Assembly (NCBI GenBank): GCA_022843465.1
Contig: JALHNO010000012.1
Span: 62,001-126,000, forward strand
Length of the DNA: 64,000 nt
Source: Pseudomonadota bacterium
GTDB taxonomy: Bacteria; Pseudomonadota; Gammaproteobacteria; Xanthomonadales; Ahniellaceae
Reading direction: 5' to 3'
Positions 60,333 through 64,000 of the stretch are shown here, in pieces. The position numbers were made by a program, and so were the translations under genes. The notes below the pieces were generated by a model, which had not been told where the DNA came from, did no database searches, and worked only from the letters and a program-made list of their open reading frames with translations. Numbering within the stretch: the stretch's first letter is position 1; each line of letters starts with the position of its first letter.

Positions 60333-60425
60333 GCCGCCGACCTCTCGCGTCCGCGCTTGGATGACAGGCCAGTCGCCGAGCCGGATTGGGTCAAGAAACT
60401 TACCGACAACTCCTTGGAGAACATC

Positions 60426-60791
60426 ATGAAACTGAACCAACTTGCTTTGATTACCGCGCTGGCCGTAGCGCTGGCCGCCTGCGGTGGAGACGCTGCACAG
60501 GACGCCGCCAAGGATGCCGAGAAGGCTGCTGCCGACGCTGCTGCCAGCGTGCAGCAGGCTGCCGACGCCGCCACCGACGCCGCTGCTGAAGCCGCTGCCG
60601 CCGCCGATGCCGCTGCCGCTGCCGCCACCGACGCCGCTGCCACGATGGGCGATGCCGCAACCGACGCCAGCGCCGCTGCTGCCGCTGCTGCTGATGCCGC
60701 CGTGTCGGCCGACGCTGCTGCCGACACCGCTGCTGCCGCGACCGATGCTGCCGCCACAACCGACGCTCCGGCCGACGCGCCGAAAGAGTAA
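60426..60791 (+). CDS. Alanine-rich repetitive lipoprotein
   Basis: 121 residues from ATG 60426 (GGAG ten bases upstream). Lipobox ALAAC with Cys19, then over 90 residues made almost only of Ala and Asp with Thr, Glu, Val, Gln and Lys, in AADAA-type repeats with Asp at about every fourth to seventh position. A continuous acidic helix or coiled coil is predicted by eye, as in Lpp-like or periplasmic spacer lipoproteins. Promoter and strong terminator flank it, so it is a separate transcript. Function unknown. The low complexity makes homology searches hard. Confidence 0.72.
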
Positions 60792-60829
60792 TCGCCAGCG
60801 GCGTGCCGCTTGCATTGCTCGCTGTACAG

Positions 60830-60862
60830 AAAACCGCCGGCAGAAGCCGGCGGTTTTTTTTT
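60830..60862 (+). terminator. Rho-independent terminator after the Ala-rich lipoprotein
   Basis: An 11-bp perfect stem AAACCGCCGGC (60831-60841) and GCCGGCGGTTT (60846-60856), loop AGAA, followed by a run of T to 60862. It separates the lipoprotein from liuB. Confidence 0.95.
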
Positions 60863-60955
60863 GCCACGACTCCAGCTGTCGCCGGAACCGGGGGCTGGCA
60901 AGCGCCGCGTAGGCAGACCGGGCCGCGCGCTAAACTCAGCTATTGCCGACGAGTG

Positions 60956-62569
<1,614 letters not shown>

Positions 62570-62651
62570 TCCGACGCATGCGAAGTACTGGTTCCTGGTG
62601 TTGTCGAGCAGGGATTGCCCCGTGACGCGCGCTCATTGGTTTGCACCCGGA

Positions 62652-62691
62652 CGGCGTCGCTACGCCGCTGGAGGGCGTCGCTACGCCGCTG
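62652..62691. repeat. Two 20-bp repeats leading into the array
   Basis: The 20-bp sequence GGCGTCGCTACGCCGCTGGA type unit occurs at 62652-62671 and 62672-62691, forming degenerate short REP hairpins (GGCGT-CGCT-ACGCC) directly before the first full REP of the array. A truncated copy also starts each later unit (GAGGGCGTCGCTCCGCCG). Confidence 0.8.
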
Positions 62692-63531
62692 GAGGGCGTC
62701 GCTCCTGCGACGCCTGGCAGCTACCGACAGGCCATCTGCCAACCCGCGTCAACGCCCCTGATCCGAAGCCCGGGAACAGCGAGATCGTTTCGACAGAAAG
62801 CCAAAGCGACCGCGCAGGAGCGCGGCCCTCCACCGGCACCGAGGGCGTCGCTCCGCCGCTGGAGGGCGTCGCTCCTGCGACGCCTGGCAGCTACCGACAG
62901 GCCATCTGCCAACCCGCATCAACGCCCCTGATCCGAAGCCCGGGATCAGCGAGGGCGTCTCGATGCAGAGCCAGAGCGGCCGCGCAGGAGCGCGGCCCTC
63001 CACCGGCACCGAGGGCGTCGCTCCGCCGTTGGAGGGCGTCGCTCCTGCGACGCCTGGCAACTACCGACAGGCCATCTGCCAATCTGCATCAACGCCCCTG
63101 ATCCGAAGCCCGGGATCAGCGAGGGCGTCTCGATGCAGAGCCAAAGCGGCCGCGCAGGAGCGCGGCCCTCCACCGGCACCGAGGGCGTCGCTCCGCCGTT
63201 GGAGGGCGTCGCTCCTGCGACGCCTGGCAACTACCGACAGGCCATCTGCCAACCCGCATCAACGCCCCTGATCCGAAGCCCGGGATCAGCGAGGGCGTCT
63301 CGATGCAGAGCCAGAGCGGCCGCGCAGGAGCGCGGCCCTCCACCGGCACCGAGGGCGTCGCTCCGCCGCTGGAGGGCGTCGCTCCTGCGACGCCTGGCAA
63401 CTACCGCCAGGCCATCTGCCAATCTGCATCAACGCCCCTGATCCGAAGCCCGGGATCAGCGAGGGCGTCTCGATGCAGAGCCAGAGCGGCCGCGCAGGAG
63501 CGCGGCCCTCCACCGGCAGGGAGGGCGTCGC
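62671..63531. repeat. Five 170-bp tandem units, each a REP-pair (BIME-like) module
   Basis: Unit starts are 62671, 62841, 63011, 63181 and 63351, each exactly 170 bp apart, with about 11 bp of a sixth start. Each unit has a forward GGAG-headed REP (stem GGCGTCGC, loop TCCT; e.g. 62861-62884, 63031-63054), a spacer hairpin CTGATCC...GGATCAG (e.g. 62928-62949) and a reverse REP with stem GGCCGCGC (e.g. 62978-63001, 63148-63171). Units 2 to 5 are almost identical. Unit 1 is the most diverged, as expected at the edge of an expanding array. 170 is not a multiple of three, so coding is unlikely. Confidence 0.95.
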
Positions 63532-63585: not shown

Positions 63586-64000
63586 TCAATTGCAAAACTG
63601 CGCGCGCAGCGCCTCGGCCTCGGGCATCCATTCGCGCAACTGACTGATGCGGCTGCCACTGCTCGGGTGGGTGGACATGAACTCGGGAGGACGCTGGCCG
63701 CCAGCGGCACCCATGCGTTCCCACAGTCCGATCGATTCCTCGGGGTCATAGCAGGCGGCTGCCGCCAGCAGCAGGCCCACGTAGTCTGCCTCGGATTCGT
63801 GGTCGCGCGAGAACGGCAGCATGATGCCGTACCTGGCGCCAGCGCCCAGCGCCGCCATCACCATCTGCTGCTGACGGATATCCAGGTCACTGGTCGACAT
63901 GCCCGCAGCCACCGTGCCGATCTGCATCAGCTTCTGCTGCGCCATGCGTTCCGAACCATGGCGCAGCAGGGCATGCGCAATTTCATGACCCATCACCGCG
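63586..64000 (-). CDS. M48 family metallopeptidase (5' end outside window)
   Basis: The last 138 codons, with the N-terminal part beyond base 64000. Zinc site VMGHEIAHALLRH (HExxH) lies at the window's edge, and the third ligand Glu is in RDHESEADYVGLLLAA. Late residues include FMSTHPSSGSRISQL, the C-terminal signature of M48 (Oma1/LoiP/YcaL-like) proteases, which process or degrade envelope proteins. The Ser/Arg-rich end stops at TGA/TAA near 63586, 55 bp from the repeat array. Subgroup not decidable from the fragment. Confidence 0.93.
   Translation of the reverse strand, partial: AVMGHEIAHALLRHGSERMAQQKLMQIGTVAAGMSTSDLDIRQQQMVMAALGAGARYGIMLPFSRDHESEADYVGLLLAAAACYDPEESIGLWERMGAAGGQRPPEFMSTHPSSGSRISQLREWMPEAEALRAQFCN

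Follow-up and report, generated by a model that had tools for sequence, protein, structure and literature searches.

The 64,000-nucleotide stretch of DNA analysed here (the window; window position is contig C12 position minus 62000) contains a tandem repeat between two convergent genes, and raises the question of what kind of element this is, how it became repeated, and in what respect it differs from repeats that are already known. The array lies in an intergenic space of ~1 kb, between genes that end at 62569 and 63586. On its left a gene with a carboxyltransferase domain (60803–62569, plus strand; Pfam PF01039 and ORF), termed liuB in the original prediction, has its 3′ end toward the array. 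On its right lies a convergent M48 peptidase gene (63586–63999, minus strand; Pfam PF01435 and ORFs) that runs past the end of the window; its full ORF is L067:4587–5489. A small alanine-rich, lipoprotein-like ORF with internal repeats of 12–18 bp is located just 5′ of the carboxyltransferase gene (60357–60791).

The array extends from 62671 to 63531 on the plus strand, where TRF gives a period of 170 with 5.1 copies, 96% matches, 0% indels and a score of 1554, and a repeat search places the units exactly 170 bp apart. Each unit comprises REP A on the plus strand, a spacer of ~94 nt, REP B on the minus strand and a further 29 nt before the next REP A. REP A is GGAG GGCGTCGC TCCT GCGACGCC, located from pattern search and sequence at 62691–62714 in unit 1, with further copies at 62861–62884, 63031–63054, 63201–63224 and 63371–63394. 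REP B is GGAG GGCCGCGC TCCT GCGCGGCC, found by pattern search at 62808–62831 in unit 1 (where one base is changed) and at 62978–63001, 63148–63171, 63318–63341 and 63488–63511. A third hairpin, CTGATCC/GGATCAG, is seen in the spacer both in the sequence and in the DNA fold (62928–62949 in unit 2, plus strand). It forms the tip of a longer imperfect hairpin and recurs every 170 bp; it is whole in units 2–5, while unit 1 reads GGAACAG. Folded as a single strand the 170-mer of unit 2 has z = −3.5, with none of 200 shuffles as good. A truncated copy of REP A also occurs in every unit, reading GAGGGCGTCGCTCCGCCG[CT]T in units 2–5 and with CTACG in unit 1. The 170-bp period and the two inverted GGAG-headed hairpins with TCCT loops in every unit, both claimed in the original prediction, are thus confirmed, with A and B located in all five units; the third hairpin, proposed for each unit, is intact in four and broken in the first.

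Modular BIMEs are described as head-to-tail modules of two inverted REPs and two intervening segments (Nunvar et al. 2010, PMC2817692). REP dimers repeated in tandem clusters are known, for example in Xanthomonas campestris (PMC2817692; PMC3733652), and large clusters are for the most part tandem repeats of singletons or dimers along with flanking DNA (Di Nocera et al. 2013, PMC3733652). The window array resembles the modular BIMEs of E. coli (BIME-2), Stenotrophomonas and X. campestris in its head-to-tail inverted pairs, its two different intervening segments, the direct association with a rayt gene, the modified REPs that keep their palindromes and the inclusion of flanking DNA in clusters (PMC2817692, PMC3733652). 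Since these published modular BIMEs and tandem dimer clusters match it, the window array is a real and ordinary modular BIME, of a kind already known. The original prediction had regarded a tandem of whole REP pairs as unusual; such arrays are the rule in this genome, and tandem REP dimers have been published. In the REPINs of Pseudomonas the repeated unit is an inverted REP pair with a conserved spacer. The unit described here is similar in having an inverted pair and spacer, but is found mostly in tandem arrays whereas REPINs are dispersed doublets. REP doublets occur in pseudomonads (PMC2817692).

The two REPs belong to a family distributed through the genome. Allowing up to three mismatches REP A has 117 matches genome-wide and REP B has 84, against 1 and 0 for the reversed-pattern controls, so both exceed what chance would give. 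Arrays contain 82 of the 84 B matches, and 96 of the 100 A matches listed (of 117 counted). Twenty stretches around REP matches were fetched and one (L066, with a single degenerate A) was left out; the remaining 19 hold 212 REPs at up to five mismatches, in 18 multi-copy arrays plus two single pairs. One of the 18 (L060) consists of two A copies only. Each array has its own period, and the A–B spacing falls mostly into two classes, of 90–95 and 113–122, with values of 71, 82, 100, 103 and 107 outside them. A–B spacers from the same array show 90% identity (163 comparisons), those from different arrays 61% (2393). A and B alternate in most arrays, some having extra A or B copies or a degenerate B, and all 18 lie between called genes (a RAYT inside array L053 was not called). 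Of the 126 A copies 119 have GGAG as their head, as do 83 of the 85 B copies (202/211 together); two A copies have GTAG. Stem cells are paired in 94.0% of cases against 80.8% in shuffles. Cells changed on both sides of the stem number 49 against 21.4 ± 3.0 in shuffles (0/500 as high), a signal much of which is the difference between A and B; the pairs with two-sided change (3 against 2.7; 271/500 as high) and the pair types (13 against 11.9; 132/500 as high) are close to their shuffled values. Taken in the broad sense of REP and BIME, the family has a hairpin palindrome with its stem kept by compensatory change, more than 100 extragenic copies of regular spacing and alternating orientation, and a RAYT gene flanked by inverted copies of its own REP. 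Its GGAG head places it outside the GTAG REP superfamily, which has a 5′ GTAG or GTGG. When 40 relatives were searched, with at most 20 candidates scored per genome, E 1e-5 or better was reached in one of them, by one match of 33 bases.

The genome carries a second REP family, GTAG GGCATCTC NNN GAGATGCC, with 403 copies at up to two mismatches (0 in the control); it is represented in the window at 386–550. This family also occurs in tandem arrays, for example C10:55149–55977, and the RAYT that probably serves it lies on C28 (L046), where 13 of these hairpins surround the gene. The idea that tandem arraying is a peculiarity of the GGAG system was rejected, as the GTAG family of this genome is arrayed too and arrays lie near 11 of the 29 RAYTs from other groups.

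A search of the genome for Y1_Tnp gave 16 matches, 15 of them above the cut-off, and one of the 16 is inside an array. This gene, encoding P0001, is at C16:14239–14712 within array L053, flanked by an A and a B REP whose separation is 682 bp instead of 90. The reading frame is intact, with 158 aa, and matches NF047646 (the NCBIfam REP-associated tyrosine transposase) with 101.4 bits (cut-off 80) and PF01797 with 28.9 bits (cut-off 23). The AlphaFold model has a pLDDT of 89.5, and its best PDB match is 4er8, TnpAREP bound to REP (E 3e-9; TM 0.68 by query length). P0001 has the properties of a RAYT/TnpAREP, that is an HUH nuclease with a single catalytic tyrosine and the family profile, and shares with E. 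coli RayT (4er8) and the classes of PMC6006769 the HUH motif DHIH, the Y motif YVRYNP, WQ, R104 and the Y1 fold. The other 15 Y1_Tnp loci have no A or B REP at up to four mismatches in the 1.9–3.3 kb fetched. From its position and sequence P0001 is likely to be the cognate RAYT of the GGAG REPs, and the RAYT with matching REPs that the original prediction named as something to search for is found in array L053.

It is very probable that the window array is a modular BIME derived from a RAYT-dependent, non-autonomous, GGAG-headed REP element and enlarged by duplication in situ. The RAYT P0001 would recognize single-stranded GGAG hairpins and move inverted A–B pairs into intergenic sites, a step suggested by the published biochemistry of TnpAREP together with the conserved stems. 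At the window site a REP pair would first have been bordered on each side by a half-REP remnant. The pair with its spacer would have been duplicated when the 12-bp repeats GGAGGGCGTCGC mispaired by slippage or underwent unequal exchange, and exchange among complete 170-bp copies would later have brought the number of units to five. A half REP A is present at both outer edges of the array, 850 = 5 × 170 bp apart, and these direct repeats (62670–62681 on the left and 63520–63531 on the right, plus strand; repeat search and comparison of spacer and flanks) are the probable end points of duplication. The 29-nt inter-unit spacer agrees with the first 20 nt of the right flank at 18 positions and with the last 20 nt of the left flank at 19; the two matches share 11 nt in GAGGGCGTCGC, which belongs to the half REP A. 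A spacer that joins both flanks in this way is what a duplication across short direct repeats spaced 170 bp from each other would leave, in agreement with the growth of whole REP pairs by duplication that had been predicted. Unit 1 is 92% identical to the consensus and units 2–5 are 98–99% identical, so later growth probably proceeded from the inner units. A 21-bp minisatellite of truncated REP A is located at the left edge (62649–62703, plus strand; TRF).

Both flanks match the inter-unit spacer in three of 14 arrays tested, L048 (where the spacer is 8 nt), L050 and L067. In L050, 24 + 36 of the 61 nt match the flanks, with two mismatches each. The flanks of L051 match too, with the right flank running into part of a further unit. 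We infer in situ duplication for the window array and not for all arrays. Inter-unit spacers are common to separate arrays in two sets (L051/L052 and L053/L056/L057), which suggests multi-unit transfer or gene conversion between arrays. Sharing of spacer variants by L053, L056 and L057 would also be expected if the RAYT itself built the arrays, as in the model of Nunvar 2010, where REPs are nicked, the basic module is circularized and copied by rolling circle, and a ready tandem BIME is inserted. RAYT genes of several phyla do lie in or beside arrays: an array with a period of 50–400 bp is within 1.5 kb of the gene in 22 of the 80 relatives examined below and elsewhere in the locus in five, and the RAYTs of other groups noted above point the same way. 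In the window array and L050, however, the inter-unit spacer is composed of sequence from the adjoining flanks, left and right, as predicted by duplication in situ, and we regard construction by the RAYT as possible though rather doubtful. That the copy number is an artefact of assembly is very improbable. The genome is a draft of 45 contigs with runs of N inside two other arrays (L054 and L065), but the window array has no N, its units differ by point changes, and the existence of many arrays with different periods speaks against such an origin.

The 18 multi-copy arrays lie between convergent genes in 11 cases, co-directional genes in five and divergent genes in two, where 29 of 150 gene pairs are convergent in 20 other stretches with genes called likewise (binomial P = 1.2e-4); three of ten weaker calls among the flanking genes have no Pfam match, and the right neighbour in L050, 1.9 kb off, is uncertain. 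Arrays of this kind lie mostly between convergent genes, where no promoter is interrupted, and could act passively as barriers to transcription or supercoiling, the enrichment being an observation and the effect a proposal. In a genome of the same genus (G001, L196) the stops of liuB and of a convergent SUMF1-like gene are 6 bp apart and there is no array, so the array at the liuB junction is not fixed in the genus; the comparison is confounded by the lack of an M48 gene between liuB and the SUMF1-like gene in G001. Adjacency of M48 and SUMF1 genes is seen in other members of the family, unlike G001.

The enrichment between convergent genes could also mean that the array has been kept by selection as a device at such junctions, either as a cluster of gyrase sites or as a bidirectional block to transcription, and E. 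coli BIME-2 is strongly bound by gyrase (PMC2817692). Yet convergent sites are also those where insertions do least harm, the corresponding junction of the same-genus genome has no array, and the array contains one terminator-like site where 0.4 are expected, so that a selected device seems unlikely. The cluster of IHF sites put forward in the original prediction is not supported, as the pattern WATCARNNNNTTR has no match inside the array at up to one mismatch; the IHF site between REPs that characterizes E. coli BIME-1 is thus missing here. Stabilization of the 3′ end of the liuB mRNA appears less probable again. The array begins 80 bp past the liuB ORF, and a transcript of 1016 nt folds strongly, at −589.7 kcal/mol (a value with no shuffles at that length), but similar arrays follow other genes and liuB has no array in the same-genus relative. 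No promoters were found, and a known RNA family was rejected, with the Rfam match to SorY at 18.6 bits against a threshold of 111.

The array itself is ordinary, and the part worth following is the lineage of its GGAG head and the corresponding branch of RAYTs. The head of REPs is given as GT(A/G)G by Nunvar et al. 2010 (PMC2817692), and as GTAG, with GYAG, GYRG, GTRG or GTMG in some families, by Di Nocera et al. 2013 (PMC3733652). GGAG is an unusual departure from the heads so described; the original prediction recorded the head and missed the departure. The modular BIMEs of E. coli, Stenotrophomonas and X. campestris have GT[AG]G where the window array has GGAG. A word-start search of the main texts of PMC2817692, PMC6006769, PMC8266576, PMC3733652 and PMC12306157 did not find GGAG, and a literature search for REP and RAYT with GGAG, or for GGAG REP strings, gave nothing relevant. 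The 2018 survey used an automated search with GTAG or GTGG heads, with atypical types found by manual inspection (PMC6006769), a design that could readily miss a GGAG lineage. Y1 transposases flanked by multiplying repeats that are not GTAG-headed are known as TIRtrons (PMC3733652) and as class 3 elements with a CnGA foot (PMC6006769), and the present system is similar in this respect. It differs in having a REP-type hairpin directly after the GGAG head, and P0001 has YxxxNP where the class 3 signature is Y----Q; these comparisons are with the main texts, and a GGAG case could be present in the figures (PMC3733652, PMC6006769).

When a collection with a single genome for each species (84,980) was scanned with the P0001 protein, 144 relatives were confirmed; the best 80 of them were retrieved. 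The record titles of 65 of these best 80 name PVC groups, a difference from E. coli RayT and the classes of PMC6006769. Among the matches listed the nearest relative is 63% identical, from a MAG of the Lysobacterales, the order to which this genome too probably belongs, and is itself inside a tandem GGAG-headed array. A perfect GGAG hairpin is present within 400 bp of the RAYT at 38 of the 80 loci, against two in stretches 2 kb away (61.4 kb scanned near the RAYTs and 50.7 kb in the controls), while the same scan gives four GTAG hairpins near the RAYT and two in the distant stretches. The order's 29 distant RAYT loci gave no GGAG hairpin, and neither did 11 other loci of this genome; GTAG hairpins turned up at two and three of them respectively, so the detector misses much in these sets. 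The motif GGAGGG is on both sides of the gene within 300 bp with the head outward at 48 of 66 eligible loci, taken from a 74-row branch with six basal loci set apart, and at none of 45 far controls. It is present in the opposite orientation at 39 of the 66, as inverted pairs and arrays would give. Fourteen genomes were chosen, all except that of L068 for GGAG hairpins with CTCCGT-like loops at their RAYT loci. In 13 of these the GGAG hairpin pattern occurs 4–184 times per genome, and 0 times in the reversed controls; the genome of L068, which has a different loop, has no match to the pattern. On a tree of RAYT proteins (quick LG+G4, no bootstrap) the type of head is clustered, with 13 changes against a mean of 30.9 when shuffled and none of 500 shuffles as low. 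The input was 114 rows, comprising the 80 relatives, 25 of the 29 control loci, seven of the 15 other loci of this genome, P0001 and E. coli RayT; 11 rows with no readable motif were dropped.

The change of head may be accompanied by a change in the segment of the protein that contacts the guide. In E. coli TnpAREP this region is discussed as W94, Q95, E100, H101 and R104 (PMC6006769), and Q95, D100 and R104 are relatively conserved in group 3 (PMC8266576). Within the 74-row branch W94 and Q95 are each kept in 66 of 74 rows and R104 in 72, and position 100 is D in 71. Position 101 is T in 52 rows and R in 15 (T or R in 67/74) and position 102 is Q in 51 and R in 20, so that this clade differs from TnpAREP in having mostly T or R instead of H at 101, and mostly Q or R at 102. 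H101 is kept in the six rows outside the branch and in the C28 RAYT of this genome. Five of these six have GTAG hairpins, two of the five also having a weak GGAG hairpin, and the C28 gene is likewise surrounded by GTAG hairpins. A relative found later (L228, 51% identical) has H101 and, on inspection by eye, is flanked on either side by inverted repeats with a GTAG head. A strict H101 rule was dropped in view of the counter-example L134, in which H101 goes with GGAG hairpins; L135 and L138, to which no head could be assigned, also have H. Some GT[AG]G classes have R at this position too (PMC6006769), so residue 101 alone cannot be the whole code. P0001 and the C28 RAYT are 39% identical and are surrounded by REPs with different heads. 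Two related RAYTs in one genome that differ in their REP heads and at a guide-contact residue would thus present a natural specificity switch, and the choice of REPs and cleavage sites by a RAYT can be tested directly by swapping residues.

In a set of 369 genomes of the class, just one besides this genome carries a RAYT at E 1e-20 or better, and that RAYT is of the GTAG type. The GC3 of the RAYT gene is 0.67, against 0.80 for liuB. On these sequence data horizontal entry of the RAYT/REP system is likely. On balance we favour, with some reserve, a reading in which the GGAG REPs are a separate lineage spread across phyla with its own branch of RAYTs, where the guide would have switched from GTAG to GGAG with the change of H101 to T or R and of 102 to Q or R. 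One such system would have passed from another phylum into this gammaproteobacterium or an ancestor of it, and given rise to tandem arrays beside a GTAG system.

The REP loops of the GGAG clade (L068–L147) recurrently contain CTCC, often as CTCCGT, the exact complement of GGAG, in several phyla. A strict head-complement loop is found in 34 of 159 distinct hairpins of the clade, sequences that are related to each other, against 2–18 for eight other tetramers. Pairing of the CTCC loop with the GGAG head is a lead only, since a head of 4 nt would seem too short to span the stem and meet the loop of its own hairpin. In a Fuerstiella MAG (L120:5480–5880) the GGAG-headed repeats beside the RAYT have the stem GGC-GA-GGC/GCC-GA-GCC with a tandem GA mismatch, and escape detectors of perfect stems. 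In an Opitutales MAG (L116:4043–4899) an array of 14 copies of a 61-bp unit, with the GGAG hairpin GGAAACG-CTCCGT-CGTTTCC, lies directly upstream of the RAYT.
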